This document shows positions 111 through 64,000 of a DNA stretch of 64,000 nt, in pieces. A program made the position numbers and the translations under genes. The notes beneath the pieces are model-generated. The model was not told the origin of the DNA. It ran no database searches and saw nothing but the letters and a program-made list of their open reading frames with translations. This DNA is from Terramyces sp. JEL0728 (Eukaryota; Chytridiomycota; Chytridiomycetes; Rhizophydiales; Terramycetaceae), in assembly GCA_027603945.1 (NCBI GenBank), contig JADIIU010000023.1, positions 62,001 to 126,000 on the forward strand, given 5' to 3'. How positions within the stretch are numbered: position 1 is the stretch's first letter; the number at the start of each line of letters is the position of its first letter.

Positions 111-908
111 ATGTCTGCTATATTCGACTATCCTAGCCCCATCCCTTCCCCATTCCTAACTAAATCCTCATTGATCTGGGAGGCTCCTGTAAATGAAATT
201 CACCAAAAATCAAAAAGAAAGAATTCAATACCTCATCGTTCACTTAGTCCGCCATTGGACCACGTCGATAGATCGTTTCAACGCATTGTAAATCTGGATG
301 TTTATGCTGTGTTCAAAGAAAACCCAGCTGTATTGCTGGGAAAGAAGCTTTCTGATTCAGATTCAGAAACAAACCCAAAATCACCACGAGATAGCATCCC
401 AGACCCACCAAAACCAAAATCAACCAGTGCTTGCAAAGTCCTTCCTTCATTTATCGTCAAGAATGAACCAATGGAACTGGATTTGTGTGAATACAAAGAA
501 ACCAAAGGCGCACCTAACGTGTCATGGAAAGGTGAATGATGAATTAACGCTAGCTGGAGCTCAGCCGCTTCCAATTACTAGAGACATGCCTGAATATGAC
601 GATTTAACTGCTGAAGAGGTTCGTACTTGTGCCACATTACGGATCTCTCCCAAGCAATATATCGAAATCAAGAGAACTATGCTCACTGCAGTTCGTTCTT
701 ATGGCCCGTTCAAAAAACGCGAGGCTCAAACATGGTTTAGAATAGATGTAAACAAAGTACATTCAATTTAACGTAGATTTGTATAATTTATGACTGGTTC
801 AAAGCACTTCAATGGATTCCAAGCACTGATGATTGGGTTGCACCAGCCGATTCTGGTAGACGAGGATCTTTTTCCGAACATAGACAAAAGAAGCTCAAGA
901 GAAAATAA
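111..908 (+). CDS. SWIRM-domain protein
   Basis: Three exons, 111-531, 554-756 and 777-908, encode 251 residues. The N-terminal two thirds is low-complexity and rich in Ser, Pro and Lys. The last 80 or so residues carry a SWIRM fold signature: a stretch of the type ARTLRISPxQY..IK, then YGPFKKREAQ, the helix leading into DVNK, and after the second intron YDWFKALQWIP. SWIRM domains occur in chromatin-modifying complexes and bind DNA or nucleosomes, so a nuclear chromatin role is inferred. The introns (532-553, 22 nt; 757-776, 20 nt) are read from frame restoration; the second splice rejoins the conserved SWIRM helix. The start is the first in-frame ATG. Which SWIRM complex it belongs to cannot be told. 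Confidence 0.85.
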
Positions 909-1128
909 GGGGTTTCAAGCAAGATTCCTGTAAATACCGTGTAAATACCTTGAAATATATTTCCTTATTATTTTTCAAACCGCAATTGTCGATACAATTC
1001 AAATAAATTTGTCCGTACTTGGTACTGCTCGCTTTGGTTTTCTAGTTAGGGGTTGGTTACTTGGGTTTAGCATTTCGCGGCATTTACGGTTTTCCTTTGA
1101 GAATCCAGGTGATTTATCTTGCCACCAT

Positions 1129-1660
1129 TTAGATTTTGGCGGTCGTACAGATTCCCAATGTGCTTTCCAGCGCTGTAGTAACAAGTATTTCTATGTCAAG
1201 TTCTAGTACTTCCTAGGTTATTTTCATGTACTTGTGCACGCAAGACCTCTAATTGCTGGGAAATTGGTATTCCTGGCATTAATCCTTCAACGGAATCCGG
1301 AATTACAATCTCCTTTTGGACTTTCTGCATTTGCTTGTAATCGTGTTTAAATCTAGTTTTAATTGTGGTGTTGAGATTGTCAGCTGGTTTCCTGTGCGAT
1401 AGTATTGCTTCTCTCATTTGTAAATCTGTCAAGTGATACTCTAAATCACGTAGATTATTTGATTTTAACGAGGTTTCTAGATGCGCCTGGTATTCCAGTT
1501 CTCTGAACAGTGTCTTGCAGTTCAGATAATCTGCAGTCCCATTTGGGTTATCGTTTGATACAAGTGAAATCTGCGACTCTTCATGCGGTACTGGAGGAGG
1601 TGCTGGCACGTCTTTCCTGCCAAAATTTACACCTCTCACTATCAGGTCAATTTCTTTCAT
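1129..1660 (-). CDS. Small hypothetical protein, helical
   Basis: Two exons on the minus strand, 1660-1232 and 1212-1129, joined across a 19-nt intron (1213-1231), give 170 residues. I do not recognise the family. The protein has a Pro-rich stretch near residue 20 (PAPPPVP), then charged helical sequence rich in Glu, Lys and Gln, consistent with a coiled coil. Another 19-nt GT-AG intron, 1191-1209, would give the same reading frame at the C-terminus, so the splice choice is not certain; I prefer 1213-1231 because its 3' end has the local branch-like consensus (ATAACCTAG). The stop lies 34 nt downstream of the PEX11 stop on the same strand direction, with only 34 bases separating this start from the PEX11 stop. 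Confidence 0.55.
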
Positions 1661-1694: not shown

Positions 1695-2453
1695 TCAATT
1701 AGTTGCTTTCCATGCAGAGTAGAATTGCAATACTGCGGCAATGGTTCCAAAGAAACCAACTCCAACATCTGGGAAGGAGGAAGTTTCCAATGACCAGTGG
1801 ATTGTCAATGGGAAATACGCAGTGTTGACCAATGCTGAAATCGCCCAGTCTTTTTCTTCTTGCTTTAATTTCTTCAATTCAGTCTTGACAACCTCTTGGT
1901 CCTTCTTTCCACTCTTCAATGCTTTGATCTTTTGATCACGAACGCTGCGTTCCTCCCATAGCTGGCCAAAGTATAGTACGACATATGCAGCCCAGAATCT
2001 GCAGCTCCACATCCCAATCTAGCATTAGGTTAATTTACTTTGTCACGAGTAGCATCAGTCATTGGAATTACCTGGTGAAGCCCAAGCCAATAAGCATGTT
2101 CCAATGGATAATACAATAAATTCATCAGATTTTGCAATCTTCCAAGCAACTGTAAAGTTGGATTAGGATTGGGATTCTTTTCTGAATGTTTGATCCATTG
2201 AATCAACGGCAATAGGCCTAAAATTAACGAAATGAACCATAATATCTTAGCAACAATCTGAAATCTGAAACTGGCCCAGAGAAATTTGCTATCCTGGTTG
2301 CAAGTGGTGATGCAGCGTTTTTACGCTTCAGGTTCCAAATAATCAGTTTGGAAAAGTATTGAACAAACATTAGGGTTTTATCAGTGCCTCTGGGATTAAT
2401 TTGATGTACCTGACAGAGTCAAGGAACCTGCACACTCTATCCAAGTCTACCAT
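1695..2453 (-). CDS. PEX11: Peroxisomal membrane protein PEX11 family
   Basis: Four exons (2453-2410, 2389-2238, 2217-2039, 2018-1695) give 232 residues, the usual size for PEX11. The N-terminus runs RVCRFLDSVRGTDKTLMFVQ, followed by KLIIWNLKRK and a segment with RIANFSGPVSDFRLLLRYYG, which match the PEX11 amphipathic helices. A long Lys/Glu-rich loop sits before the C-terminal hydrophobic segment (GVGFFGTIAAVLQFYSAW). PEX11 proteins tubulate the peroxisomal membrane and promote peroxisome division; the amphipathic helix inserts in the membrane. All three introns are exactly 20 nt (2390-2409, 2218-2237, 2019-2038); one uses a GTTC donor instead of GTA/GTG. The start is the only ATG that opens the conserved N-terminus. 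Confidence 0.9.
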
Positions 2454-2768: not shown

Positions 2769-4582
2769 ATGGCAGGTGAACAACTGAATTCTTGTTTCAA
2801 AGCACTGGACAATGCAGAAACAGATGAAGATATCCTCGTAGCACTAACAATCCTTCCACGGATCCTGCAACCAGCAGATGCAGATAATGTAAAAAGAGCA
2901 TTCTCGCACATACCTTGGAAGTTCATTCATAGGATGATGATATCGCCGATTACAGACGGATTAATGCAGATCATTGCTATTAGAATATGGACATGTTTTT
3001 GCACAAAGGAATTTGGGAAAAAGAGTAAATTGTTAAAAAGAATCAAACCTGCAAGTAATTTGTTGAACTCCAATATTGAACTGGAGATTAAAGAATTGGT
3101 CTTGAGAGCGTTGATTGATTTGATTCAGGAGGAGGAAGCTGCGGTGTACTATGAACCTGCCGTCTTGGAGAACATTGGACAGATTAGCACAACATTACCA
3201 GAATTATATCTGCATTTTGTTCAATTTTGTATCCCCAAATTTGAGACAGGGCTGTTCATTGCACCTTTATCTCACTTGCTTCAATCCGATCACAAATTCA
3301 AGTTTCAAACCGTTCCTGTACTGATTGCAATTTGGGCAAATCCGAATATTGATATTGATCAAGCATCCAAAGCACTTCCGGAGCTAAAATCGACGATCAA
3401 AGCAATAATGGCAAGTAAATTGACAAAGGATGTATCAGAACAAATTCTTGTTTTACTTGCATTGATAGCAACGCATTTCAAAGAATTCATTTATCCAAAC
3501 ATATTTGGTGAATTGGATCAGAAGATGCAAGAGAGCAAGGTTCTTTCCGATACACAATTGTTGGTAATGGCAACGCATGTAACTGGAGCGGAAATTAGAG
3601 TAACTTTAGATGCCACAACTAGCAATTTACAAATGAATGACTTTGAAGCCCTTCCGTTGTTATATTCATTCTTGGAAACGGTAATAGGTTTCCTTGTGTC
3701 TGACCAATGTACTCTGGATGAATCTAATCTAAAATCAATTCAAAAGGCACTCTTCGAAACGTACATTTCCATTGCAGCATTCTTGAGTGACAGATGGGTA
3801 ACTATTCTTAATTTAGGACATGTTTCAAGAATCCCAAGATATCAATATGTTGGATAATCTAGCAACTGTCTTTTCACTAAAAACCTACTCTCGCTTTACT
3901 AGTGAAGAAAGCTCAGTTTCAACCGAGGAGGCGACTAGGTTAGTTCCTTTGGTAGTGTTCATGTTGCAGCACAGACTATCGTGTATAGATGAAAACCCAA
4001 TTGATTTCATGGATGGAATCTTGAATATGATTACTTCTGATCCAATGATTCTTGAAGAATTCAACTCCTTGAATGGATACATCCCGTTGATTGATTCTTT
4101 TGTCCAAGACAAAGCAAACAAGACGAATTTGGCCGGGCTTTTGATGAATATTATTGTTTCTTCAAATATTAGCATGTTGCAGATGGAACCACTTGTTGGA
4201 CTACAGAAAAAGCTAGAAGCGATTATTAAGCAGGAAAATGACTTGTACTGCTTGTCGGTGAATGTCTTGAATTACTTGTTTATAACAAGGTCGTCCAAAA
4301 AGTTGCAAGAAAGCGCTACTATACCGATAGGTGAGATTGTTGCTTTTGTTTCTAAACGCAATGAATTGCCTGAAGGATCAGGCGAATTATGGTACCTGAA
4401 TGTGTCTGGTAAACTCATATCTAACCTTAGCGCTTTCACAAATGGCCACTGTAGCTGAGTTATCAGAGTACCAGCCCCAGTTGAAGGAGCTGAAAGGTAT
4501 AGTGATAGCTAACGTAGAAACTTTATCCGATAGCGAAGATTTACAAATACTAAACCAATTACTACATAATATAACCATTTAA
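2769..4582 (+). CDS. Neurochondrin-like protein
   Basis: Three exons, 2769-3797, 3817-4408 and 4431-4582, give 590 residues. The whole length is alpha-helical repeat sequence without membrane segments, and the N-terminus (LNSCFKALDNAETDEDILVA followed by LTILPRI) and overall pattern fit the neurochondrin family (PF05536), an armadillo-like fold. In animals the protein binds membranes and receptors and affects signalling; the role in fungi is poorly defined, so no specific function is assigned. Introns are 19 nt (3798-3816) and 22 nt (4409-4430). The stop codon is immediately followed, with no spacer, by the stop codon of the convergent AlkB-like gene. Confidence 0.75.
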
Positions 4583-6211: not shown

Positions 6212-9200
6212 ATGTCCAAAGACACTTTGGCTAAAGCTGCAGATTCGCAGTATCAATCCCGTCCCCAAGGACTATTTAAAACCGTACAAAGCTGGTACAA
6301 GGTAACTCTTTGTTGATTGCAGCCTGTATATGATTATAAAACCGAAGGCCTTACTCCTGAACAAAGAGCAAGAAACCCAAAATATTTTAATGGACGCATG
6401 AGGCAATGGGAATTCATCCTCTTGCATGTTCTCGTTGTATTCAACACAATTGCGTTGATCATGGTGCCTGTAGCATATTTTTCATTAATTCCGCAATACT
6501 TACAATATCGAATTGATTTGATTGGTACCGATGGAAATGCAGTCAATATTCACAAAGTAGCTGTTGGTAAAATGGACAACACCTCCATTGAATTTGCTGG
6601 TAACTCACCACTTAACTGTAGGTGATTTCAGAGTCGATGCTTTGGCTCCGTTCCCTGTTTATGCCGGATTCAGAGGATTCACTATTAATATGGTCAGTGA
6701 TGGAAATGTCTTGGGCCAAGTCGATGTACCAGAAGTTGGATTCTGGTTGAACAAGGAAGTTGTATTCAATATCAGCGGAACCATTAGATTTGATGCAGAT
6801 AATCAAAAGAACACCAAGGCATTGATCTCCAAATTCTCTAGTGGAGGGATCAATGATTTGGCTCTTAAATTCCAATTTGCACCAACCATTTTGACTTTTG
6901 GCATGCCTGCTTACTGGCACTTGCCATTGCATAGAAACGTTGACATTGGCGATGTTGCTGGTACCGCTGCTGGATTATTAGCAACCGCTCAATACGTAGG
7001 TCAAAATTCAAAGTATGTCAACTTTGTTGCTGAGCCATTCGACAATTACGCTTCATTGAAAGCGTACTTTGACAATGACATGGATAAAATCACGCAACTA
7101 CCACAAACACTAGGTGGGCTTGAATTTGTCTGGGACAAATTCTCTACCAATATCACAGACACAACATTCTCTATCGGATTTGCAGTTGCATCTGTCAATT
7201 ATTCGCCATTTGCTTTAGAATTGATTGATCAAATCGACTACTACCTGGCTGTTCAAGGAACCAAAGTTATGAAAATGTCACTTCGCAGAATTGGATTAAA
7301 TGACAACTTCAACTACCTCAACTTTGCGCTGGACTTTACTTTCATCGACCCATCCCTTGATACCACCGCAACTCAAGCTGCGCTGGAATCTGCATTTGCT
7401 TCCTTTGCAAGCTCATTCAACTTTAACTTTGCACTAGTTGGTCCAGTAAAGATCAGCGGAGCTGGATTCATGGAAAACATGACTTCTGATTTGCAAGTTA
7501 CTGGTTCGCTTAACGACATTATTGCTTTCTTGCCACAATCTATTGCTTCTGCAATCAAGAGCGCTGTTACCAACCCAACATCCTTGCTTACCCCTGAGGT
7601 TGTTCAAGAAGCTAAAGATATCCTCATGGATTCAAAGATTTCGCTGGAAGTGTTGGCCGACAAATTGGAAGGTATCTTTGGCATCAAGCTGGGTGCACTT
7701 GCCTACATTAAGCCACCACAAGAAGTTGATTTCCCTTATGCTTCTACTGTCAGTATCTACGGTAACGACGTCAAAGCCATCCAATCGGACTTGTCTGCCA
7801 TCAGCATTACTCGCGAGTCTGATGGTATGAGAATCAGCACCAATGCCACTGTCACTCCTGTCAACACTGATGAAGCAGCAACCGGACTTGCAGCCGCAAT
7901 CAATCCTATCCTTGCTGCTAACCCAAGCGTTGGAACAGTTGGTATCAAGGATTTTGGTTTCTTTACCCCTGGACAACCAGTTTTCAAATGGTGTAGCGCA
8001 ATTTTCGGACAACGTATTATCCACTTGCAGATTCCTGGAATCAATAAGGAAGCACTGATCAACTTGGTTGCTAGCAACAGCACTGGAAAAATAATGTCTG
8101 CAATGTCAAACTTGATCAGCGTTGGAAATGTCAACCTGGCGCAATTAACTGATAAGCCTGGTTTTGGTGCCAAGGGTAACGTTAAAGTGGCATATCCAGC
8201 TGGGTACCCGCAATTGCTCATTGATATTGGCTACTTTAACCTTGCAACCACTGTTGAAGACACTAGTTTGATGACTGTGCAGCTCCCAACTGGGTTGAAA
8301 TTCTATCCGCAATCTAGTGGAACTGATATTAACGGCCAGGCTGTTATTGGAAGAGACGCTGCAATTAGTTCCAAGGTCCAAAAGTTTGTCAATGCATTAA
8401 CTGCCGACGACAGGACCCAAAACCCTTCATTCGCTGGTGTTACAGGTTTAAGTTTCGGTGCTTCCCCAACCCAAAACTTTGTTACTTTCTCCAAAGTCGT
8501 TGTTGATGTCAGAACCGACACTATTTTGAACGTGGTCTTGCCATCCTCCAACTCTACTGATATTGTCCAAACTGTAGTGAATATGCTTCCTGCAAATCTG
8601 ATCAAAGCTACTGGTCTCGACGCCACTGTTTCTAGTGCAAGTAACGTTGCTTTGTCTGCCAATGCAAACGTAAACAATCCATTCAAAGTGATTGAAGTAT
8701 CCTTAGGTACTACTCAATTGACTGCTTTGTTGGGATCCCAAACTCTGTCTGGAGTCAGTGTCTCTCCATTGGACATTAAAGGAGGAAACAGCTCTCTTAC
8801 TTCTAATGTTGCATTGACTGTTGCGACTGGTGCAAACGGACAGGCAAAGAATGTTGCAGATTTGGTTAATGCTGTTCTTGCAAAAGATACTTCTTCCTCA
8901 TTGAAGGCTGGTGTTACCGGGTTTACTTTGTTGCCTCCTGGCGTTACTAGCGGACCTGCTGTTATCGACCAATTTGCAGGTGTTATTGTTAACGTTGCTA
9001 CTGGAAAATTGATCAGTCTTGGTTTGGAAATTTACAACTACATCTCAAGCTCTCAAGGAAAAGGCCCAATTGACATTTCTGCATTGCTGCCAGACACTAC
9101 TGATCTCAACAAGCTATTGACTGAATTCAATCCATCCATCAAATCTGTCCAATCTGCAACTGCTGAAAACAGAGTTTTGAACGCTGGCACCTCTGCTTCA

Positions 9201-12200
9201 TACACTAACCCCCTTCCACTCTCTGCTAAATTGCCATACGTTGCTGTTGATACTAGCCTCAACGGGGTTTTGTTGGCAACTGTTCAAATGTCAAAGTTTG
9301 AATTGGATAGATCTTCAGGTGAATTTCGTTAATATTAGGAACTTTATCGCCTTCCATTGTCATGAAAGTCAACAAGGCAGATGGTTTACCACAAACTGTT
9401 TCTACTACTGTTTCCGACTTTTTGAATGGACAACTGAACACCAAAATTCAAGTTGGCGGTATTTACTTTGGTACTCCAGATTCTATTAACGACTTGTTTT
9501 CTGCTGTGTCTGTCACTGCCAACCCGTATGTTCAATCATTTGTTGCTCCTGCATCTCAATGGATCAACACTCAATTACAATCTGTTGGTGCAACTGTTAA
9601 TCCGTTACAAAAGCGAGATACTAGCACACTTCTTACCATTCAAGGACCTTTCGGCATTGTTGTCACTGTCAACAGTATCGATCTTACTTTCTTGCCTGCT
9701 TCCCAAGTAAAGGGTTCCATCAACTTGACACTTACTCTTCCAATTGAAACTGATATCAACTTTGGATTCATTTCTATCACAACTGGTATTGATAGCGTAA
9801 CTGCTGCAACCGTGACAACTGGATTTGGATTCAAGGGAACTAACCCAACTTTCGATCTCGCATTCACTGCTGCCGTAAACGACGTTGATGATCTCGCCAA
9901 CAAGGTCGCAGATATCGTATCTGCATTCTTGAAACAACTTGTCATCCCTGGTATTGGCGTTGGAGAAAATGCTCTTATCGGGGTTTCTAACGCTGATTAC
10001 ATTGATGCATTCTCCCAAGTCTCTATTGGGTTGTCTGTCGACAAGCTTGCTGCCCCATTGAAATCTATGTTGAACTTTAATGACATTCTCAACCAAATTG
10101 CACAAAACCCAGATCAAGTCTTGGCCCAAGGACAAAGTTTGGCAGGCAAATTCGGTGTTACTGTTAACGGATTAGGCATTGCTGCACAACCTGGACGTAC
10201 TATGCGAGCCTCTGCAGTTGCTGGTTTCTCCAACACTTTCCCAATTACCATTAGCGGTTTAGATTATATCGGCTCTGCTGCCGGTCTTGACGACACAGTT
10301 ATCACTGCTGTTACCCTTCCTGAATTTAACATTGGTAAAGGACAACAAAGTTTCAATTTGGTTGCAAATGCTCAATTCCCATCTTCACAAGCCATCAAGG
10401 ATAAGGTAAAGGCATTCGGTGATGATATTACCAACAACTTTGGAAACACTGCTGAAAACTTGGTTGTCAGCCAGATTGCTTTCGGTGTTAGCCAAGCAGA
10501 TCACTTCAAGTTCATGAGCAAAGTTGTTATTCCAATTCCTTCCAAGGTATTGTTCAACTCCAACACCCTTGCCTTGGCTACAAAGCTTGCCAAGCCTTTG
10601 ATTAGCGGTCTTGATATCACTAAAATGGTGTCAAACCCATCTGCAGACGTTGAATTTACTCAAGACAAGAAGATTTTGGCCAACCTTGCTGCTGGTCTTG
10701 CTCTCCCACTTTCAGTCGGCGTTGATATTCCTTTCTCACAATTTGGTGCTGATGTAAATGCAACTCCTGGCTTTGAAATCCAAGTGCAAAACCTCAAGCT
10801 TGATGGAAATGCAAATGCTACCCAAAAACTCAACATTGCAACAACCACCGTTGTAGACGATACTCTCACACTTGCCAACAACATTGCTGCTCTAACTAGC
10901 GCGCTTCTTCATGGAAATCCATTGCCTGGCACTATTGGCGGAGGAAGACTAAGCTTTGGTGTAAGTGCAAGCGATTGTGTTGATTCATTCTCTGAATTAG
11001 CAGTTGGTGTCAAACTTTCACCTAATTTCGACTCTCTCGTCAATGATGCAAAGGATTATGCTGCTGGACTAAACTACACCGCCATACTTGGGAAATTGGG
11101 TGTTAAACTTGGAGCTATCAACGTTGCTGCCAAGGCTGGAAAAACTGTATCCTCTACTATTACTGCTGGGTTCACTAACCCATTCGCCCTTACTGTAAAA
11201 GGATTGAACTATGCTGCTACCAATGCTGGTATTGATGCTCTCACCGTTACCACCATCAAATCCTCCCTTTCAAAAACCACCAACAACAACTTGAACCTTG
11301 AAGCTGATTTAACTTTCAATTCCGACCCAGTTGTTATTGATGCAGTTGGCAGCTTTTCTAACGATTTATCCACCAGCTTTGGAAGTACTAATCAATTCTT
11401 GACTGCTAGCGGTGCTACTTTTGGTTTCAGTGAAAGCACAGCATTCAAATTCTTGAGTCAGTCTATTTTAGGATTTAACGCTTCTATTTTGTTGAACCAA
11501 AAGAACCTTGGGTATGCCTTGCAATACATTAAAGAAAGCGGATTGAACACAACTACTGCTCTTGGTCTTGTAAAGCCAAAGGCTTTAGATATCCAGTTCA
11601 ACCCATCCAACGTAATTAATACTGGTATCCAGGCTGACTTGACTGTTCCTTACCAAATTTCTGCCAACATGCCCTATTTCTCCACTGATGGTTTCTTGAA
11701 CGGTCTCACACTGGCCAACCTTGTTGTTAACGGATTCAGCGTTACTGGTCAATCTACAAACACTTTAAATTTGGCTTCCCTTGTTGCTTTGTTTGACTCT
11801 GATGAGATTGAAACTACTATTGCACACTTTGTTGACGCTGCAATCGCTGATTACAAGAACATCCCTGGTAACGTTGGAGGTGGTAATTTATACTTTGGGC
11901 TGGACTCTACGCCTGCAAATGTTATCGACACTTTCTCCAAAGTCAAACTAAGTGTTGACGTCAAAACTATCACAGATATTGTCTTGCCATTGATTCCAGA
12001 TTTGTCAAACTTTGACCCAATCGCCCTTCTCCAATCATTCAACCCTTCATTGCAAAACTTGCAAGCAAAGACGTTGCCTGGAAAGATACTCGGAACTTCG
12101 TTTACTGCTGGATTCAACAGCTCTTTCCCTATTTCGGTCAAAGGACTTGGTTTCATGGGTGCTGCTGCGGGAGTCGATCCGCTTCCAATCATGCAACTTA

Positions 12201-14730: not shown

Positions 14731-15987
14731 ATGGAATTTCAAAAGTTGCAACGGTACTTGCTGGACACAATCCTAGAGCACCAGCGATATTTAGACCTTA
14801 CCGCGGAACACCTAGATGATTTCACTGAACTGATAACTGATCGATCGCTATTAAGGCGATTCATAAAGAAGCACAAAGATATCCCGACAGTTCAAGACAA
14901 GGTGATTGAGCATTTTGATTGGAGAATCAACCATAATATTGCCGGACTGAATTATACAACTGTTGGAGATTTGGTGCTGCAGTATTTGACTGATGGCATA
15001 TTCAGATTCCACAAGTACGATCTTATCGGAAGACCAGTATGTTATGTCCTGCCTAAATATTTCAAGAAAGAGAAAGGGATCGAAGGGTTAAAGAAAACGG
15101 TTGTCTACGCTTTAGAAATACTACGCAGATGGACGAGTGCGCAAGACAATTTTCAAGTATTAATAGTGATAGATTTGGAAAACTTTGGTCTAACTCAAAT
15201 GGTACATGAACACTAACAAGGATTATGAATCTGTGCCGCATCTATATGAAATTTTCAGGAATCACTACCCGCAGTTGGTTGGACAAGCAATTGTATTGAA
15301 TTATGGATGGATACATGCAGGGATTTGGAATTTCATAAGGACGCTATTATCTGCCGAAGCTAGAAGCAAGTTGAAGTTTATTAGCACTGAGCAATTGGTT
15401 GAATTCATACCAGAAGAAAATATTCCCGCATGTAAATAGTTGCTTATGTAGATTACGGTGGCTCAGATACTTCATACCCAGTACCGCCAGATATCTGTCC
15501 GATAATTCAAACGTATGGTGGATTGTTGAAAGGACAACGGACAGACGATCAGAAAAATATTAGACAACAGCTAGAGAAGAACCTGCATCAAATCCCACAC
15601 AGTCCTTATATATTAGATGGAGACTATTATTATGATGCAGTTGCAAAACCTGTCAAGTCAGCAGCAGACTTGCAGTCGCTCTTACATACACAATCAAAAT
15701 TTACTGGCGGTGGTTTCGGTCGAACTCTAAGTTCTTCGTCGCTAAGTACTCTGAAGAAACGCAAGTCTCTGGTTGGATTATCGAGTATCAGAATGACACC
15801 AACTAGCTCCACAAAATCACACTATGATGTCCCAATTGACGAGGATGAACCAAAGAAACGTAAGCGAGAGATTGTCCTGACGTTTATGCAAAGGTATTCC
15901 AAGAGATGGACCAGCGTCATACTGGTTTGTTTATTTGTATTATTTTTTGGGAGGACATTGTTTAATAAAATACGAGCGATTGCTTAA
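14731..15987 (+). CDS. CRAL-TRIO (Sec14-like) lipid-binding protein with C-terminal membrane anchor
   Basis: Exons 14731-15201, 15221-15431 and 15452-15987 give 405 residues. A CRAL-TRIO N-terminal helix region (LLRRFIKKHK, then RINHNI) is followed by the lipid-binding domain: the segment HKYDLIGRPVCYVLPKYF, the strand QVLIVIDLENFG and, after the first intron, NHYPQLVGQAIVLNYGWIHA, which matches the conserved YPE..... helix of Sec14 proteins. A Ser- and Lys-rich linker leads to a single C-terminal hydrophobic segment (SVILVCLFVLFFGRTLF), so the protein is probably tail-anchored, facing the cytosol. Sec14 proteins move or present phosphatidylinositol and other lipids; here the anchor suggests action at membrane contacts, which is inference. 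Introns are 19 and 20 nt. The stop codon overlaps the stop of the convergent epimerase gene by 3-4 bases. Confidence 0.85.
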
Positions 15988-36544: not shown

Positions 36545-36556
36545 TTTTGAATTTAA

Positions 36557-48619: not shown

Positions 48620-48649
48620 TAAAAAGATGTTTTCAAATTTACGCGTTCA

Positions 48650-49103
48650 ATGAGCAAAAAGAGCAGAGAAGGCAAAGAAAAGCAAGTCCAAATAGATTTA
48701 AAAACCGGCTCATTCATTTTCCCAGATGGGTCGAAATACGGTAGTTTCCATTAACACAGATGGAGAGTATCGTGAAGTTGACGGCTCAATTTATCGGCAC
48801 GGACTAGGAGCTTATGAATGTGTACAAACGCAGACCACATACACTGGGCAGTGGGAATTGGACAAGATGTCTGGCAAAGGAAAGATTGAATTCGTTTCTG
48901 GAGATTCTTACGATGGAATGTGGAAAGAAAACCAGTACAACGGTCAGGGAACTTATACATGGTCCACAACTGAAAAACTAGGGGGTGAATGGATAGATAA
49001 CTGTGTACAAGGATTGGGAATATACGATGATGAAGGAAAAATCAAGTGGGCAGGCGAAGTTGCCAAAGGAGTAGCCTCAGTTATGGTGCCAAGATTAGAA
49101 TAG
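48650..49103 (+). CDS. MORN-repeat protein
   Basis: Exons 48650-48740 and 48760-49103 (19-nt intron) give 144 residues. After a Lys-rich start there are about four MORN repeats: FPDGSKYDGEYREVDG, TTYTGQWELDKMSGKG, DSYDGMWKENQYNGQG, EKLGGEWIDNCVQGLG. The size and order are like MORN2/MORN3, small proteins of cilia and acrosomes; MORN repeats bind membranes or act as scaffolds. With the CEP164-like gene this fits a flagellated stage, but MORN repeats also occur outside cilia. Confidence 0.85.
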
Positions 49104-51196: not shown

Positions 51197-54100
51197 ATGG
51201 TAAACAAAATCGACGAAGGATTGTATTCCAGACAATTGTAAAAGCAAAATAACTGTAGATATGTATTGGGCCATGAAGCTATGCAGCAAATGAGTCAGTC
51301 TAATGTGCTCTTGGTTGGTCTTGGTGGGCTTGGTGTTGAAATTGGTACCTGCATTACTAATCTCAGCCAAAAATGTAATTCTTGCTGGTGTGAAATCAGT
51401 TACGCTATACGACAGATCAAAGATTGAAATTGCCGATCTGTCATCCCAATTCTTTTTACATGAAAATGATATTGGCCAATCAAAAGATAAAGTTACTCAG
51501 CCAAAATTAGTTGATTTGAACAGCTATGTGCCTGTCCATGTATTTGACGGTGAATTGAACGACAGTACTATTAGTAAATACCAAGTGGTGGTAGTCACTG
51601 ACCGTGATCACTATGAAAAAGTTCAAATCAATGAATTGGCAAGAAAGCATAAAGTCAAGTTTATTGCAGCAGAAACCAGAGGTTTGTTTGGCTTTGCATT
51701 TAATGACTTTGGGTTGGACTTTAAAGTCAGTGATACTACTGGCGAAAATGCACTGTCGGGAATGATATCAGCTGTTTCAAAAGTACGCTTTATTTTAATT
51801 ATAGGATGCCGATGGCGTAGTTGCATGTTTGGAAGATCAGCGTCACGGACTCGAAGACGGCGATTATGTTACATTTACCGAAGTCCAAGGCATGGCTGAA
51901 CTCAATGATATCACACCACGCAAAATTACTGTTACTGGCCCATTCACATTTAAAATCGGCGATACTTTATCATTTGGAGACTACAAGACTGGAGGATACT
52001 TTAAACAAGTAAAAATGCCTAAAGTTTTACAATTCAAAACCCTTGCCGAATCATTTGCAGAACCAGAAGTCATTATTGCTGATTTTGCAAAATACGATCG
52101 TCCAACCCAATTACACGTTGCGTTCCAAGCGATTGGCGAATTTAAAAAGAAGCGCTCTCGTTTGCCAAATCCACGAAACGACGGAGATGCAAACGAATTT
52201 TTTGGAATTGTTAAAGAATTAGGAAGGCATTTGGCATCTCCCCCAGAATTTGATGAAAAGCTAATTAAAGAATTTGCTTACCAAGCTAGAGGTGATCTTC
52301 CACCAATGAATGCAGTATTGGGCGGTCTTGTTGCGCAAGAAGTATTGAAAGCTTGCAGTGGAAAATTCATGCCAAATTTCCAGTACTTTTACTTTGATTC
52401 TCTTGAATCATTGCCAAAATCTACTCCGCTGACCGAAGCTGGATGTAAACCAACTGGAAGCCGCTACGATAACCAAATTGCGGTTTTCGGAAAAGATTTC
52501 CAAAATCAAATTGCCAATACTCGCCAATTCTTGGTAGGTGCTGGTGCGATTGGCTGTGAAATGTTAAAGAACTGGGCTATGATTGGTTTGGGAACAGGTC
52601 CTGAAGGAAAGATTATCATCACAGATATGGACACTATTGAAAAGAGTAACCTGAACAGACAATTCCTGTTTAGACCTTGGGATGTCAGCAAATTAAAGTC
52701 AGAATGTGCAGCAAGTGCAGTTGAAATAATGAACCCAGCAACCAAAGGAAAGATCAAGGCATTTGCTGAAAGAGTAGGACCTGATACAGAAAAGATCTTT
52801 GATAAGGACTTTTGGGCTGGACTGACTGGCGTTACCAACGCGTTGGACAATATTGATGCCCGTAGATATATGGATAGAAGATGTGTATTCTATGGAAAAT
52901 CACTTTTGGAATCTGGTACTTTGGGCACCAAAGGCAACACTCAAGTTGTTATTCCAGGCTTGACAGAGTCATACTCGTCTTCCAACGACCCTCCAGAAAA
53001 GTCAATTCCAAGTTGCACGCTAAAGAATTTCCCTAATGCTATTGAGCATACTATTCAGGTAAATTTTATTAATATTAGTGGGGTAGAGATTTGTTTGAAG
53101 GCTACTTTACAAAGAGCATTGAAAGCGCCAACTTGTACTTGAATGATGCCAACTTTGTTGATTCAATGATGAAGCAAGGTGGGAATAACAAGGAAACCTT
53201 TGACAATATCCTGAGCAATCTTGTAAGCGACAAGGCAGAGAATTTTGAAGATTGTGTTACTTGGGCTCGCTTGCAATTCGAAGAGCAATACCACAACAAG
53301 ATTTTGCAATTGTTGTACAACTTCCCTAAGGATGCTGTTACATCTACCGGGATTCCATTCTGGAGTGGACCGAAACGTGCTCCTGATGCCCTGGACTTTA
53401 ATGCGGATAATGTATCGGAACTCGTTAACGATAGGAACTGCACATGTCCTTTATTGTCGCTGCTGCTAATTTGAGGGCATTCAACTATGGAATTCCACAA
53501 GAAAATGGTGTCGACATGATTAAATCCATTTTGAAGACTGTCCTAGTTCCAGAGTTTTCACCTAGATCAGGTGTTAAAATTGCAGTTTTAGAATCTGAAG
53601 CCAACCAGCAAGCTCAAGTTGATGAAAGTGACTTGGACAGAGTTATTAAGGCTCTCCCAGACCAAGCCAGATTTGGAAGCAAGAGACTTGCCCCTGCAGA
53701 TTTCGAAAAGGATGATGACACAAACTTCCACATTGATTTCATTACTGCTGCATCTAACCTTCGTGCAACCAACTACTCTATCACAGTTGCCGACAGACAC
53801 CAAACCAAGTTTATTGCAGGTAAAATCATCCCCGCTATCGCAACTACAACCGCGCTAGTCACTGGATTAGTTTGTCTTGAATTATACAAGGTAGATACTG
53901 CTTAACACCAGGTTATTGATCAAAGAAGAGTTTTGGAAGACTACAAGAACGCATTTGTAAATTTGGCCTTGCCACTCTATGCTTTCTCTGAGCCAATTGC
54001 AGCTCAAAAATTCAAATACCATGAATCAGAATGGACTTTATGGGACAGATTCGACTTGAAAGGCGACATGTCTCTTTCCCACTTTATCAAGCACTTTAAG

Positions 54101-55960: not shown

Positions 55961-56828
55961 ATGCTTACTACTTTGTTTACTTTGGCTGTCGCGCATGCTC
56001 TCCCTACTACCTCCAACTTTGATCGCATGTTCATTATCATTTTGGAAAATGAAAGCTACAGCACTGTAGTTGCCGATAACTACTTTGGCAAAGTGCTTGC
56101 TCCAAAAGGACGCCTGTTGACCAACTACCACGCAGTTACTCACCCATCCCAAGTACCTTTTGCTAACCTAGCCAAACTATATCGCTCTTACATCTGGATC
56201 TACTGATGGCGTTTCCATGGACAGCATTGCTGATGTTGACAAGACTAATATTGTTGACAAGTTGGAAGCTGCCCAATTGACTTGGAAATCGTACCAACAA
56301 GCCTACCCAATTGCATCTGGATGCTACGCCGGCGACAAAGGCACTTACTACAGAGTAACTATTTATTGATGATAGAAACACAATCCATTCGCATCGTACA
56401 AAAACATCCAGTCCAGCCCTGCAAGATGTGCCAACATTGTTAACGCTAATCAACTGAACTCGGATATCGCTGCCGGCAATGTTCCAAACTACGTCTTTTA
56501 CACTCCAGATATCAACAATGATGGACACGATACTTCAACTTCTTATGCTTCCAACTGGTTGCAAGGATTCATCGAGCCGCTATTGACCAACCAGTTGTTC
56601 CAGAACACTTTGTTTGTCGTTACTTTTGATGAAAGCGCAAACTTTTTGAACATTGATACTGTCCATAACCAAATCTATACTTTGTTGGTTGGTGCTGGCG
56701 TCCCTGCAGGTACCCAGGACAACACCTATTACACTCATTACTCGCTCTTGAAGACTTTGCAAGCCAACTGGGGAATTGGAAGCTTGACTTCTAACGATGC
56801 CGGTGCAACCGGATTCAACTTGCGCTAG
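55961..56828 (+). CDS. Secreted phosphoesterase/acid phosphatase, tandem copy 2
   Basis: Exons 55961-56152, 56172-56354 and 56376-56828 give 275 residues with a signal peptide. Metal-site motifs are ILENESYSTVV, then HPSQPNYIALTSG (made by the first splice), TPDINNDGHDTS and LFVVTFDESAN. The first intron (56153-56171, 19 nt) is shared with copy 3; the second (56355-56375, 21 nt) is found in this copy only, between the Arg and Lys codons of YYRKHNP. Copies 2 and 3 are much closer to each other than to copy 1. Confidence 0.9.
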
Positions 56829-57175: not shown

Positions 57176-58026
57176 ATGCTCTCCTTCATTCCGTCATTGA
57201 TTGCGCTCAGTGCAGCACTGCCAGCTACATCCAACTTTAACAATATTTTCATTATTGTATTGGAAAATGAAAGTTTTGGCCCTACTTTTAACCAACCTTA
57301 CTTTGGCAAAGTGCTTGCTCCAAAAGGACGCTTGCTGACCAACTACCATGGTGTTACCCATCCATCCCAAGTACTATTTTGCTAACCTAGCCAAACTATA
57401 TCGCAATGACATCTGGATCTACTAATGGTGTTTTCATGGATTTTACTGCTGATGTCGGCAAGACTAATGTTGTAGATAAATTAGAAGCAGCTCAGTTGAC
57501 TTGGAAAACTTACCAAGAGAGCTACCCAGTTGCTTCTGGATGCTTCAAAGGTGACGCTGCCCCATACTATCGCAAGCACAACCCATTTGTCTCTTACAAA
57601 AATGTTCAATCCAATGTAGCTAGATGCAACAATATTGTAAACGCAGATCAATTGCAAGCCGATATCGCATCCGGCCAGCTTGCAAATTACATGTTCTACA
57701 CTCCAAACATTAACAATGATGGACACGACACTGACTTGGATTACGCAGCTAACTGGCTCCAAGGATTCATCGAACCATTGCTCGCAAACCCTGTCTTCTC
57801 AAAGACTTTGTTTGTCGTTACTTTTGATGAAAGTGCCAATGTCTTGGATATTGATACTGTTCACAACCAAATCTACACTGTGTTGTTGGGTGCTGGTATC
57901 CCTGCTGGTACTCAAGACAATACCTACTATAACCACTACTCGCTCTTGAAGACTTTACAAACCAACTGGGGAATTGGAAGCTTGACTTCAAATGATGCCG
58001 GTGCAAATGCATTCAACTTGCGCTAA
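57176..58026 (+). CDS. Secreted phosphoesterase/acid phosphatase, tandem copy 3
   Basis: Exons 57176-57370 and 57391-58026 give 276 residues. The start at 57176 gives a good signal peptide (MLSFIPSLIALSAALPA). Motifs: IVLENESFGPTF, HPSQPNYIAMTSG across the splice, TPNINNDGHDTD and LFVVTFDESAN. The intron (57371-57390, 20 nt) is almost the same in sequence as that of copy 2, differing near the 5' end. Function as for copy 1. Confidence 0.9.
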
Positions 58027-58492: not shown

Positions 58493-59608
58493 ATGTTCAG
58501 AGGTTTAGGAAAATTAGTCGACAATTTGGAAAAGGTAGTTGAAAAAATAGACCCAAGCCAAGTTGAAAAGGTACCTTACAAGCTAACGCAGGCGCTGGGT
58601 AAAGTGATTGGAGGAAATGAAACTACCACCGGTAGAAAACCAACTGGTTCAATGTCAACTCATACGGGAGGCAATGGCAAACGCAGAGCATTGTTAATTG
58701 GTATCAATTACGTTGGAACTCAAGCTCAATTATCCGGCTGTGTCAATGATGTAAACAATGTTCACAATTTCATCAAGGACCAGTTTAACGATATTAGAAT
58801 CTTGACTGATGATCAACAAGGACAAAGCAACCCAACCAAAGCCAATATTATCGAGTCATTCAAATGGTTGGTCTCTGGAGCTCAGCCTGGCGATTCATTC
58901 TTCTTGCATTACTCTGGACACGGTTCAACTCAAAAGGACGAAGACGGTGATGAAGTTGATGGGTTGGACAACACCATTTGTCCAGTAGATTACAATTCTG
59001 CCGGTATGATTGTCGATGATGTATATTATTATTAATGGTAGGAAATGAACACAATCCTTGTTCAAGCTTTACCTGAAGGCTCCAGATTGGTAGCTATTTT
59101 CGATTGTTGCCATTCTGGTACCATGCTTGATTTGCCATTCATGTACACAATTGATGGAAACTTGGAAGTAACTTGCAAGAGCAACAAGCAGGCTGCATTG
59201 GAAGGCGGTATCAAAGCACTTAAAGATTTCCAAAAAGGCGACAAGCAAGCTGCGATGAAGGAAGCTTTCAGCGCTCTTTCATTGTTAACAAAACAAGAAC
59301 AAAACACTCCAAACTCTGAGGCAGAAAAGAAGACTTTGGCAACCAAATTTTCTAAAGCCGACGTACTAATGTTCTCTGGATGTAGAGATAACCAAACTAG
59401 TGCTGATGCTAAAATCAACGGCCAAGGATGTGGTGCCATGTCATGGGCTTTATTAGCTGTCCTTAGCAGCTCTAACGGAGCCAAATTGTCATTGAAAGAT
59501 CTGTTGGCCCAATTGAGAGAAAAATTGCAGGGCAAGTATGAACAAATCCCTCAAATGTCTACTTCACATGAGGTAGATGTCAACAACAACCACTTTTCAC
59601 TCGTTTAA
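58493..59608 (+). CDS. Metacaspase (type I), catalytic dyad present
   Basis: Exons 58493-58570, 58592-59020 and 59042-59608 give 357 residues. A short helical N-terminus leads to the p20 domain: [40 protein letters not shown] with the catalytic His (58919-58921), and [18 protein letters not shown] with the catalytic Cys (59108-59110). A p10-like C-terminus ends in [18 protein letters not shown]. Metacaspases are Ca2+-dependent Cys proteases cutting after Arg or Lys, with roles in stress, aggregate clearance and cell death; there is no Pro/Gln-rich prodomain as in yeast Mca1. The first intron is 21 nt and contains no stop, so the unspliced mRNA would add VPYKLTQ in frame. Start is ATG 58493. 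Confidence 0.92.
58571..58591 (+). other. Stop-free 21-nt intron in metacaspase gene
   Basis: GTACC...GCTAACGCAG fits the local intron consensus. It is a multiple of three with no in-frame stop, so ORF finders read through it. The paralogue at 60172 has an intron with stops at the matching position, which supports splicing here. Confidence 0.75.
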
Positions 59609-60171: not shown

Positions 60172-61259
60172 ATGAATTGTTTCGCAAGCTGTTTAGGTGA
60201 AGTAGAAAAGGAAGCAAACAAAGTCAAAGATGAAGCAAGAAAAGTTACTCCGCACTCAGTAAGCTACCACTTGACATAGGCAATAACCAAAGCATTTGAC
60301 GTGCAAGAATCAGCTAGTGTAAAACCAACTGCCATGATGACCCATGAAGGCGGATACGGAAAACGAAGAGCTCTGTTAATCGGCATCAACTACTTTGGCT
60401 CGCAAAACCCCTTGTCGAACTGTATTAGCAATGTTCGCAACGTTAACGACCATCTCAAGGATTTGTATTCTGATATTCGCGTTCTAAGTGATGACCAAAG
60501 TGGTGAAAGCCTGCCTACTAGAGCCAATATTATTGCGTCTTTCAAGTGGTTGGTTGAAGGTGCTCAACCTGGTGATTCATTCTTTTTACACTTTTCTGGT
60601 CAATCTGCTGCTGTTAAAGACCAAGATGGAGATGAGCAAAATGGAAAAGATGATGCAATCTGTCCAGTCGACCATGCTACTGCTGGTCTGATCCTTGATG
60701 ATGTAATCAATGCTAAATATAGGAAATGAATACGCTCCTCGTGCAATCGCTACCTGTTGGTTCAAGACTTGCGGCAATCTTTGATTGTGCTCATGCTGGG
60801 ACTATGCTCGACTTGCCTTTCGACTACATCATCGATAATACAGGCCAAGTTGTTTTACAAGACAGCAAGCGCTCTATAGTAGATGGCGGATTCCAAACCT
60901 ACAAGGATATCCAGAGTGGTAATGCCGCAGCTGCAGCCAAAGGTGCCTTTGGCGCATTGTCTACTTTGGCTACCATGAATCAAAAAGATGCAGCAGTAAA
61001 AAAGACTAGAGAGTTGAAATCATCGAATGCTGACGTGATCATGTTCAGTGCTCATAGAGATGCATTTTCGAATGATGCCAATTATGTAGTTTCTAGCGCG
61101 CTCTTGTCTGTGTTGGACAAGGTAGAAAGCGGCTCCAAGCCCACTCTCAGCGACTTGCTGGTTAAGATGAAGGATAGTTTGAAGGACAAGAAACTTGAAC
61201 CGCAAATGTCGACTTCCCATGCAGTAGACGTAAAAACCAACTTTTTCTCCCTTGTTTGA
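60172..61259 (+). CDS. Pseudo-metacaspase: both catalytic residues lost
   Basis: Exons 60172-60259, 60281-60712 and 60733-61259 give 348 residues. The fold is the same as in the upstream metacaspase ([76 protein letters not shown]). The catalytic His is Gln (60601-60603) and the catalytic Cys is Ala (60789-60791), so it cannot be a protease. The reading frame, introns, TATA box and the rest of the domain are intact, so it is not simply a decayed gene. A regulator, decoy or partner of the active copy is inferred. The N-terminus differs from that of the active copy (MNCFASCLGEVEKEANKVKD). Introns are 21 and 20 nt at the same positions as in the active copy. Confidence 0.92.
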
Positions 61260-61348
61260 TTCTATTTTTTTTGAATAAAACCCGATTGCACTCTGTTCCA
61301 AGTTGCTGGAGATATTCCATCTCTGAGGCTTATCAAAATATTTTCGAA

Positions 61349-64000
61349 ATGGAAGGCCAATCTCCAACGCACAATCGTTCATCCCAATATAATAATAATG
61401 AAACAACGAGTACGAATCAGACTCTGGGAATTAATATGGCACGAAACCCTTCAACATTTTCAAGGTTAAGCACCACACAATCGCCAGGATCTTCGGTCCC
61501 CAGTCAAATAATAACGAGAAGGAGAAGCAATGCCATCCCAGCCCGTTCACATTATGCATCGAGAATAGAAGGGAAATATATTTTAATCTAGGTTCACACG
61601 AAACTGCAGCAATTTCAGTTTCAACAGCAGAAATCAGACAAGTAAGTTGAATTAATATCAGCAAACAATGTCATGGACGTTTAGAGAATTAGCAACATAT
61701 GATTCACGCTATTCCCCGATCGGAAAGGATTTCAGCTCAAGTGCTCCAACTAAACGGCCGTTCACACCATCCATTTCAATCAAACTTGATGATGAAGCCT
61801 CTTTTGTATTTGAAAGTGAAAAAGAGAGCGAAGATGAGTATGGCGAAGATGAATATTTGATACCCCCAGTATCTCCAAGTATGGATAATGAAGTGATACC
61901 CCAAGACAAAGACGCGCCGTTCTGTTTTGCATATATTTGGAGTATAGTGAAATTGTCAGTGTATTCACTACCGGCAGTTTGTTTGGCAGTTCTGTTGACA
62001 TTACTGGATGCAGTAACATTTGCTTTATGTTAGATGTCCTATGGAATAATTGTATTTCCGCATTCTGATCCACATATTCCAGCAACTGGCCCTCAAGCAG
62101 GAATTTCAATGTTTTTAGCAAGTACAATTATTTCGCAGATTGTTTATACTGGAGGAGGCTCGGCATTTAAAGGTGCTATTGGAAGCATGATGATTGAAGT
62201 TATGCCTTTCTTGCATATAATGTGCCAAATAATTGAAACTCAAATGGTGGGGCAAAGCGATCACAGTATTCTAGCAACCATTATGGTATCTTATGCGTCC
62301 AGTACTATTGTTACAGGGCTTGTTTTTATACTTCTTGGAGTATTTAAACTGGGGACTGTAATCCATTTTTTCCCTAGACATATTCTAGTTGGATGCATTG
62401 GAGGTATAGGATTATTTTTGATATTGACTGGGATAGAAGTTACTGCTCATGTTCCCCCGGTCATTAATCTGGAATATTTTATGGAAATATTCAAATTATC
62501 CAATTTTATACTTTGGGGGTCAAGGTGAATCTTTATTAATCCAGTTTTGCTGCTGCTCTGGTTCTAAAACTACTCCAGAATTTCGTTGACCATCCAATGC
62601 TGGTGCCCATATTCTACGCAGTTATACCGTTCTTGTTTTATATTGTGGTATTTAGTATTGGCATACCCTTGGATGAATTACGCAAATTGGGCTGGCTGTT
62701 TAACTTTGAATCTGCAAACGATGCTCCATTTTATATTTTCTGGACTTTCTTTGATTTTAAGCAAGTTAAATGGTCAGCGGTCATGGCAACTATCCCAACA
62801 CAACTAGCTTTGACCTTCTTTGGAATTTTACACGTTCCAATCAACGTGCCTGCATTGGCTGTTTCCACCAGACAAGATGTGGATTTATCAAACGAAATTA
62901 TTGGACATGGACTAAGTAATATTCTGTCGGGACTTGCTGGAACTACACAAAACTACCTCGTCTATTCCAATTCATTGCTTTACATTAGGTCGGGAGGGAA
63001 CTCTACAACAAGCGGGGTAATATTGATTTTGATGACGATATTCCTGTGGGTCAAAGGGAGTTTTGTCATCCAATACGTACCTACGATTATAGTTGGAGCG
63101 TAAGCAATAATTAATCCCAGTTTAATCTTCCATTTGGGGGTTGATTTGCTTAAAGAGAGTGTTTATGACACCTGGTCGGTAGGAATGCATCCTTCAGAAT
63201 ATTTTACAATTATTATTATTGTAATGGTGATGGGAGTTGTTGGTTTTACGGAAGGGATCATGGTTGGTATCCTTTTAGCCTGTGTTTTCTTTGTAGTTAT
63301 GTATTCCAGAAGATCCATCATCAGAGAAACCTTTTCTGGTGCGCAGCTTCGTTCCAATGTCCACCGTTTGTTTAGACAGCAACAATTCTTGGATAAAGTT
63401 GGTATTCAGATCCATATAATCAAACTCCAAGGCTTTATGTTTTTTGGAACCGTCAGCCAGCTCGATTCACATATTAAAGGGATTCAACATTGCAATTCCA
63501 AAACGCGTTTCATCATTTTGGATTTCTCCTTGATCAGTGGTGTTGATTATTCCGGATTGGAAACTTTTCTTCGGATCAAAAGACATTTAGAAACTACAAA
63601 AACCCATCTAATATTCTGTGGTTTACAATCTATGGAAAGCGAACTTCGACTCTCTGGAATATTTGATACAGATGATTCCATAGATACAACATTGGTTCAT
63701 ACATTTGAGACACTCAATAACTCTCTGGAATGGTGCGAAAACTATTTACTCTCCACATATTATCGCAAGAGTGTACAAAGCGATCCAAAATCTGGTATTA
63801 TTAGTCTAATCTAGTTCCAAACTCCTCGTGGAATATTGCCAATTTAGGACCAGATATGGCATCAACACCAAGAGGCCAGCAAGTGAGTTTTGCAGCTGAT
63901 TTGATAATCAAAGCACATCCCCATGAAACTCCACTATCCACTACTTTTAACAAGGGGCATGAACCATTTAGATTCTTGATGCAGGCATTATCAGACACAG
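61349..64000 (+). CDS. Vsb1/YGR125W-like SulP vacuolar transporter, 3' end cut by window
   Basis: Exons 61349-61571, 61592-61641, 61662-62012, 62034-62524, 62545-63099, 63121-63794 and 63815 to the window end give at least 843 residues. A Ser/Thr-rich cytosolic N-terminus with RSHYASR precedes a SulP membrane core: LLDAMSYGIIVFP across the splice, TGGGSAFKGAIGSMMIEVMP, FPRHILVGCIGGIGLFLILTG, and PINVPALAVSTRQDVDLSNE. A STAS domain (FIILDFSLISGVDYSGLETF) follows; the sequence after the last intron should lead to the cyclic-nucleotide-binding-like domain seen in this fungal group. The yeast relative is vacuolar and linked to basic amino acid storage; the same role is inferred. Six introns, one with a GG donor. 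If translation starts at ATG 61668 instead, the first two introns are in the leader. Confidence 0.9.
61572..61591 (+). other. Putative 20-nt intron with non-canonical GG donor
   Basis: GGAAATATATTTTAATCTAG has the local length and 3' end but begins GG instead of GT. Removing it keeps the frame from ATG 61349 into the next exon. Confidence 0.5.

Follow-up and report, generated by a model that had tools for sequence, protein, structure and literature searches.

The nuclear genome of Terramyces sp. JEL0728 almost certainly carries, in its coding sequence, almost only U2-type spliceosomal introns of 19-23 nt. These ultrashort introns are identified as the dominant class on the strength of control searches, homologue junctions, paralogue comparisons and a public protein identical to a spliced product. 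In the window, that is, the whole 64-kb stretch of DNA analyzed here, the final gene-finder run (intron length limited to 26 nt) placed 61 GT-AG introns of 19-23 nt across 26 genes (Table 1), with 14 introns of 19 nt, 21 of 20 nt, 17 of 21 nt, 8 of 22 nt and 1 of 23 nt; an earlier note on this DNA had counted 61 in about 24 genes, split 13/24/13/10/1. The same length limit yielded 400 ultrashort introns within 314 kb, and in the coding sequence of the 26 segments sampled the dominant class formed a single narrow length mode below about 25 nt. Introns of 19-23 nt were present in all 26 segments, at 1 to 28 per 10-kb stretch, and the description of the class as genome-wide thus holds as far as a sample of about 2% of the genome reaches. 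The claim that such introns dominate a fungus-like genome is likewise supported and can be sharpened, the organism being a true chytrid whose closest proteins are rhizophydialean; an aphelid or rozellid affinity was considered and found no support. These chytrid genomes are reportedly described by Amses et al. 2022.

Table 1. Ultrashort introns of the window (window coordinates; all rows from the final gene-finder run, limit 26 nt).
Coordinates	Strand	Intron length (nt)	Gene	Supporting comparison
532..553	+	22		
757..776	+	20		
1213..1231	-	19		
2019..2038	-	20		
2218..2237	-	20		
2390..2409	-	20		
3798..3816	+	19		
4409..4430	+	22		
4497..4517	+	21		
6302..6322	+	21		
6600..6621	+	22		
9319..9338	+	20		
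12655..12676	+	22		
15202..15220	+	19		
15432..15451	+	20		
16595..16615	-	21	aldose 1-epimerase	product: 1snz, PF01263
16789..16808	-	20	aldose 1-epimerase	product: 1snz, PF01263
17167..17188	+	22		
17221..17241	+	21		
17354..17372	+	19		
18878..18897	+	20		
19802..19821	+	20		
21063..21082	+	20		
23487..23507	-	21	SulP-like	place shared with paralogue's 20-nt intron
26064..26083	-	20	SulP-like	paralogue comparison
27175..27193	-	19	AATF	product: PF08164, PF13339
27512..27532	-	21	AATF	product: PF08164, PF13339
28815..28834	+	20	protein kinase	product: full PF00069
28994..29013	+	20	protein kinase	product: full PF00069
36897..36915	+	19		
37060..37079	+	20		
41061..41081	-	21		
42110..42131	-	22		
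42940..42960	+	21		
43238..43256	+	19		
45774..45794	-	21	weak gene model (score 7.4)	
46445..46464	+	20	Atg6	product: PF04111, PF17675
46590..46608	+	19	Atg6	product: PF04111, PF17675
47519..47537	+	19	V-ATPase subunit C	junction seamless in relatives
47692..47710	+	19	V-ATPase subunit C	junction seamless in relatives
47997..48016	+	20	V-ATPase subunit C	junction seamless in relatives
48273..48291	+	19	V-ATPase subunit C	junction seamless in relatives
48430..48448	+	19	V-ATPase subunit C	junction seamless in relatives
48741..48759	+	19		
51238..51258	+	21	E1	restores LYSRQ of relatives
51345..51366	+	22	E1	junction seamless in relatives
51783..51804	+	22	E1	junction seamless in relatives
53059..53078	+	20	E1	junction seamless in relatives
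53412..53434	+	23	E1	junction seamless in relatives
53891..53911	+	21	E1	junction seamless in relatives
56153..56171	+	19	tandem gene family member	missing from intronless paralogue
56355..56375	+	21	tandem gene family member	paralogue comparison
57371..57390	+	20	tandem gene family member	paralogue comparison
58571..58591	+	21	caspase-domain	Pfam, paralogue comparison
59021..59041	+	21	caspase-domain	Pfam, paralogue comparison
60259..60279	+	21	paralogue of caspase-domain gene	paralogue comparison
60703..60722	+	20	paralogue of caspase-domain gene	paralogue comparison
62013..62033	+	21		
62525..62544	+	20		
63100..63120	+	21		
63795..63814	+	20		

The gene finder was first run on 264 kb without any splice-site model, allowing introns of 12-120 nt. 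Among the 256 possible dinucleotide pairs, GT..AG was the sole pair to produce a peak at 19-22 nt, with 46 of its 104 calls falling in that range, whereas the other 255 pairs averaged 5.1 and none exceeded 19; AT..AC, the control pair that bears on U12-type introns, gave 4 calls of 19-22 nt. From 27 nt up, GT..AG calls in this model-free run were at control level. A second model, applied to 314 kb, used learned donor, branch-point and acceptor weights and no length term, with introns of 12-200 nt allowed, and placed 343 of its 473 calls at 19-23 nt. Six composition-matched control motifs gave 5-11 calls in that range, and a seventh, in which the GT and AG ends were retained, gave 64. With the same weights, GC..AG, GA..AG, GG..AG and AT..AG gave 17-29 calls at 19-23 nt versus 375 for GT..AG. 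Except in a held-out test, the motif weights were learned from the same data that they scored; in that test, a model trained on the 61 introns of the window made 376 calls in the 25 other segments, 257 of them at 19-23 nt. Between 27 and 200 nt, the 122 calls of the real model stay below the 127-311 of the seven controls, and longer introns are thus not in excess. Within the window, the length-neutral run returned 86 calls; 61 were of 19-23 nt (14/23/15/8/1), and the remaining 25 spanned 31-197 nt. Some of these 25 calls, and of the 122 in the 314 kb, could be real, although their number is at or below control level. A finder that used codons only and was trained on nothing but the window proved too weak.

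Junctions in individual genes were compared with homologous proteins. All 11 junctions of E1 and V-ATPase subunit C are seamless in relatives, ten directly and one after correction of the intron call. The spliced products of E1, V-ATPase subunit C and the aldose 1-epimerase gene galM align to solved structures across the junctions, and seven spliced products match their Pfam families, the comparison covering the first 599 residues of E1, a complete domain in the case of the protein kinase, and the caspase-domain gene. The restoration of diagnostic motifs upon intron removal, which had been proposed from reading the sequence, is thereby borne out against structures for E1, V-ATPase subunit C and galM, and against Pfam for E1, Atg6, galM and AATF. 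Spliced Slu7, from which introns of 20, 20 and 21 nt were removed, matches a public Terramyces sp. JEL0728 protein without a difference over 477 residues, and at least three such introns are therefore present in the public gene models. E1, V-ATPase subunit C and Slu7 could all be read without any longer intron. Paralogues gave further evidence: a tandem paralogue without introns continues uninterrupted through both places where its sister genes have them, and paralogue pairs, the two SulP-like genes among them, carry 20/21-nt introns at one place.

With the intron limit at 60 nt, three window calls exceeded 26 nt. The 36-nt call at 51223-51258 is in truth the 21-nt intron 51238-51258, as judged from the E1 of relatives. 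The 47-nt call at 61545-61591 disappeared at a limit of 26 nt, the gene start moving later, and the 5' end of this gene is uncertain; the 35-nt call at 14175-14209 sits in an antisense open reading frame that scored 1.2. In another segment, four identical 24-nt calls were found to be a repeat.

The 400 introns share a set of signals in an almost invariant arrangement. The donor consensus is AG|GTA(A/T)TT, in which the exon-side AG is retained, while position +5 is G in only 14% of introns and T is favored. The branch-point motif, (C/T)T(A/G)A(T/C), presents its adenine in 399 of 400 introns, at base 14 or 15 and never nearer the donor, and the last base of the YAG acceptor lies 5-6 nt past it. 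This motif is complementary to the intact GUAGUA of the U2 snRNA encoded in the genome, which was located in segment L026 (1501-1693, 140.2 bits). Genes for SF1, the U2AF large subunit, Slu7 and Prp18 were also found, the match for the U2AF large subunit scoring under its curated whole-protein cut-off. Slu7 scored 139 and 104 bits in two exons and, once spliced, 289 bits across the whole profile; for Prp18, two exons scored 109 and 55 bits. The earlier suggestion of a spliceosome adapted to ultrashort introns thus found no support in these four factors, all of which are kept. U1 snRNA was not found with its Rfam model, nor the U1-70K N-terminus by domain search, and the silence of the corresponding controls means that absence cannot be inferred. 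The same holds for U6 snRNA, which was not found with an Rfam model and three patterns to which controls were equally silent; two matches to the Rfam model are coding sequence, and the pattern matches comprise four from one pattern, of which the one inspected is coding.

Several other accounts of the short segments can be weighed against these data. A finder free to skip bases will always come upon some strings that mend a frame, and the control pairs averaged 80 calls in all. That the finder has in this manner cut out fortuitous GT..AG strings or indels of the assembly is nonetheless next to inconceivable, given a 19-22-nt peak unique to GT..AG, the gap between 343 calls and the 5-11 of the six motif controls, the exact junctions and paralogues, and the agreement of the public Slu7 model. 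Very short and uniform gene inserts are also known from systems in which segments are lost otherwise than by splicing, whether through DNA elimination in some life stage or through ribosome bypass. Against such a loss stand the U2-type signals, including a branch-point motif that is complementary to U2 and keeps a constant distance, and the presence in the genome of U2 snRNA, SF1, the U2AF large subunit, Slu7 and Prp18; we regard it as very improbable.

It is unlikely, to a lesser degree, that the genome holds two classes, in which the ultrashort introns are real and ordinary longer introns are also common, whether located in untranslated regions or overlooked within coding sequence. The intron evidence is confined to coding sequence, and the length-neutral model still makes its 122 calls of 27-200 nt. 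These calls show no excess over the seven controls, however, the model-free run is at control level from 27 nt, and E1, V-ATPase subunit C and Slu7 required no longer intron.

Under the preferred reading of spliceosomal introns, the ultrashort segments would be removed by the major spliceosome, which would recognize the entire intron as a single unit. The 13-nt minimum that separates G1 from the branch adenine may correspond to the smallest lariat loop that the spliceosome accepts, and the introns may have shrunk down to it. Because there is so little room in the intron, U1 probably acts on the donor and U2 on the branch point in turn, not side by side. A further possibility, which we consider doubtful, is that this fungus independently evolved a spliceosome that operates at the steric floor and recognizes 5' splice sites in an altered way, where donor choice would depend less on U1 than on U5, U6 and the fixed branch-point distance, since the G at +5 has been largely given up and U1 snRNA, the U1-70K N-terminus and a standard U6 went unrecognized.

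Comparison with known systems places these introns among the shortest known in any organism. Chlorarachniophyte nucleomorph introns, of 18-21 bp (cited in PMC10245619), have a nearly equal and narrow length range and also form a dense, dominant class, but reside in a relict, extremely reduced nucleus, in contrast to the ordinary 15-Mb fungal nuclear genome considered here. The heterotrich ciliate Stentor coeruleus has introns of 15-16 nt (PMC9505925) that resemble those of Terramyces in being ultrashort, in a single mode, bounded by GT..AG and with a branch adenine about 5 nt before the end, with U2 GUAGUA conserved and SF1/U2AF kept. Its branch adenine, however, lies at base 10 or 11 without strong consensus, against base 14 or 15 with strong consensus in Terramyces, and the entries given for SLU7 and PRP18 are N/A; a Stentor-like loss of step-two factors, which does not characterize genomes dominated by ultrashort introns in general, is ruled out here for Slu7 and Prp18, both of which are encoded. 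Mikrocytid introns (16-17 nt; PMC10245619) are likewise ultrashort and narrow in range, but belong to parasites with 224 highly conserved introns and a reduced spliceosome, whereas Terramyces has 400 looser introns in 314 kb and, as far as the four protein factors found can show, no evident loss. Paramecium (around 25 bp; PMC5014332) is similar in its exclusively ultrashort introns and differs in their greater length and in being a ciliate; its 3n introns are rich in in-frame stops, a feature that in Terramyces is a lead only. Ordinary fungal introns, as in Cryptococcus neoformans (mean 63 bp; PMC8476143), are also numerous and U2-type, but those of Terramyces are about one third as long, form one narrow mode and have G at +5 in only 14%.

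Among the literature matches listed, none reported ultrashort introns for a chytrid or other fungus, although an earlier description is possible. Fungi would hold a lineage with nucleomorph-short introns whose nuclear genome is ordinary and retains SF1, the U2AF large subunit, Slu7 and Prp18, and ultrashort introns would then not require the loss of these factors. The spliceosome of Terramyces, as a relative of well-studied ones, could serve for testing the smallest usable lariat loop. Standard surveys would overlook such introns: a pan-eukaryotic survey of minor introns excluded all introns under 30 bp (PMC10639083), a cut-off that would drop nearly all of those seen in Terramyces.

Some further features of individual introns were recorded. 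In-frame stops occur in 84% of 90 21-nt introns versus 52% in other frames, and in 76% versus 53% of the 59 best-scoring ones, both figures coming from a coding-based finder that favors stop-bearing introns. In two near-identical genomic copies, the sole within-gene indels are two 1-nt indels, both inside introns, which adds to the support for their excision. The public V-ATPase subunit C model of Boothiomyces macroporosus omits a 46-residue exon that, in Terramyces sp. JEL0728, sits between two 19-nt introns.

The window lies within one contig of a 15.0-Mb assembly of 231 contigs. Introns were called with a custom gene finder driven by codon-usage scores, in which every intron incurs a fixed cost whatever its length. 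It was applied to a first sample of 264 kb, made up of the window and twenty 10-kb stretches of this genome, and then to a sample enlarged by 5 more stretches (314 kb, ~2% of the genome; 26 segments); 2 of the 10-kb stretches came from the window's own contig. In the absence of any splice-site model, GT..AG yielded 46 calls of 19-22 nt in 264 kb, whereas the 255 other dinucleotide pairs averaged 5.1 and reached at most 19, and this was the sole length class in which GT..AG topped every other pair. The calls of the top control pair in this class, TA..GT, look like the same introns shifted by one base. The excised strings have in common a GTA at the start and, close to the end, a motif resembling CTAAT or TTAAC. 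The finder was next given learned weights for the donor, the branch point and the acceptor, with a length term still absent, and in this form made 473 calls of 12-200 nt in 314 kb, of which 79, 150, 76, 31 and 7 were of 19, 20, 21, 22 and 23 nt, respectively. At 19-23 nt, six composition-matched control motifs returned 5-11 calls each in the same 314 kb, and a seventh control, retaining the GT and AG ends, returned 64. No excess of longer introns was found at 27-200 nt in this sample (122 calls for the real model versus 127-311 for the controls), and longer coding introns are therefore undetectable by this approach. In a held-out test, a model whose training set was only the window's 61 introns placed 257 of its 376 calls in the 25 remaining segments at 19-23 nt.

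In the window, the length-neutral run called 61 introns at 19-23 nt and 25 at 31-197 nt, and the final run, with a 26-nt ceiling on intron length, gave 61 introns in 26 genes, a count that takes in one weak gene model (score 7.4). The earlier note had arrived at the same total; its length split (13, 24, 13, 10 and 1 for 19 to 23 nt) agrees with the final one (14, 21, 17, 8 and 1) in range and in the 23-nt class, the other classes differing slightly. Its description of these introns as genome-wide holds for the sampled fraction, since introns of 17-24 nt were present in all 26 segments, ranging from 1 (stretch L018) to 28 per 10 kb. Extrapolation from 400 introns in 314 kb gives an estimate of ~19,000 for the whole genome.

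Coordinates of features in the window and in sampled stretch L018
Sequence	Position	Strand	Feature
Window	6212-14642		Single predicted gene, 2,782 codons long, interrupted by just four introns
Window	29840-36568	-	Four similar tandem genes, putatively glycosyltransferase-like (by eye), all intronless in an intron-rich genome
Window	45720-46184		Weak gene model
Window	46196-54334		Atg6, V-ATPase subunit C and E1, close neighbours
Window	54929-55768		Intronless copy of a tandem family
L018	8656-9260		One 24-nt string four times, spaced ~190 nt, pointing to a tandemly repeated coding unit

When the E1 and V-ATPase C junctions were compared with relatives, 10 of 11 proved seamless at once, each in at least 3 of them. 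The eleventh, called as a 36-nt intron, was rejected because it lacked the LYSRQ of the relatives, which among four choices tried (17-25 nt) only a 21-nt intron restored; with this one E1 call corrected, all 11 junctions of the two genes are seamless. Solved structures also align across junctions in E1, V-ATPase C and galM. Pfam families were matched by the spliced products of galM, AATF, Atg6 and, over its first 599 residues, E1, four genes in which the earlier note had claimed restored motifs, and by those of a kinase, Slu7 and a caspase-domain gene. Within the tandem family, the intronless copy reads through both intron places of its sister genes; the first place holds introns of 19 and 20 nt in these sisters, the second an intron of 21 nt in one sister. 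A SulP-like pair has introns of 21 and 20 nt at one shared place, and a caspase-like pair has introns of 21/21 and 21/20 nt at matching places. Once its introns of 20, 20 and 21 nt are removed, Slu7 matches a public Terramyces sp. JEL0728 protein without a single difference over 477 residues, and hence the public annotation already removes at least three of these introns. Two sampled stretches, L027 and L028 (contigs C199 and C111), share ~3 kb at 99% identity and represent either uncollapsed haplotypes or a recent duplication. Over the 2,469 bases of gene sequence compared, 142 of them intronic, these copies show 16 exon substitutions and two 1-nt indels. Each of the two indels falls within an intron, so that the corresponding intron lengths are 21 and 20 nt between copies. 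Of the other indels, three are intergenic, and one that was scored as exonic reflects where the stretch ends.

These introns combine a fixed geometry with splice signals and a matching U2. Among 400 introns of 17-24 nt, branch A was located in 399, with a distance from the first G of 13, 14, 15, 16 or 17 nt in 168, 175, 44, 9 and 3 cases, respectively, and never of less than 13 nt, even though the search reached down to 10. The distance from branch A to the intron end is 5 or 6 nt in 364 cases, a gap too small for a polypyrimidine tract. Donors show A at -2 (50%), G at -1 (53%), A at +3 (92%), T at +5 (45%, with G at only 14%) and T at +6 (57%), and GC content is 30% in introns versus 41% in coding sequence. 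Intron-like strings with a score of 10 occur in exons 11 times in sense, 34 in antisense and 84 in reversed orientation, the finder itself removing some of the sense strings. In-frame stops occur in 84% of 90 21-nt introns versus 52% in the other two frames (76% versus 53% for the 59 best-scoring), an excess not seen at 19, 20 or 22 nt and constituting only a lead, because a finder built on coding scores prefers introns that contain stops. The pattern at 21 nt recalls Paramecium introns (PMC5014332).

Judging from the sizes of known complexes, U1 and U2 can hardly fit together on so short an intron. Most likely, the major spliceosome recognises the whole intron as a single unit, the 13 nt from G1 to branch A being the smallest loop that it accepts. 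The U2 snRNA is canonical, and the genome encodes SF1, Slu7, Prp18 and the U2AF large subunit, the match of the last falling below the whole-protein cut-off. A standard U6 snRNA was not found in the whole genome with the Rfam model and three patterns; the assembly may lack it, or its sequence may be diverged or interrupted. The genome search also returned neither U1 RNA nor the U1-70K N-terminus, a miss that does not show absence.

The known kin in length are introns of nucleomorphs (18-21 nt), heterotrichs (15-16 nt) and mikrocytids (16-17 nt) (PMC10245619), and in a 2025 paper 23 nt is still named as one of the shortest introns known (PMC12316389). Branch-to-acceptor spacing is about the same in Stentor, whose branch A lies at base 10 or 11 (PMC9505925), so that the donor-to-branch loop is what mainly differs between the two lineages. 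Among the papers listed, from which most subscription literature was absent, none described introns of this kind from chytrids or from any other fungi, and to our knowledge they are the first in Fungi. The novelty resides in the lineage and the retained factors, ultrashort introns as such being already known.

Terramyces sp. JEL0728 is classified in the Terramycetaceae (Rhizophydiales, Chytridiomycota), and the top V-ATPase C and E1 relatives among the matches listed belong to Boothiomyces and Globomyces; no protein of the strain itself was among the best 120 matches listed for V-ATPase C. The public model of Boothiomyces macroporosus V-ATPase C (P0001) lacks 46 residues that here lie between two introns, and its sequence is also altered where the first junction falls, as would follow from misprediction of ultrashort introns. 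A public protein of Chytridiales sp. JEL 0842 (P0126) fuses domains of E1, V-ATPase C and Atg6, and other chytrid models join E1 with V-ATPase C (P0183) or with Atg6 (P0225); these fusions look like either a conserved neighbourhood or merged gene models.
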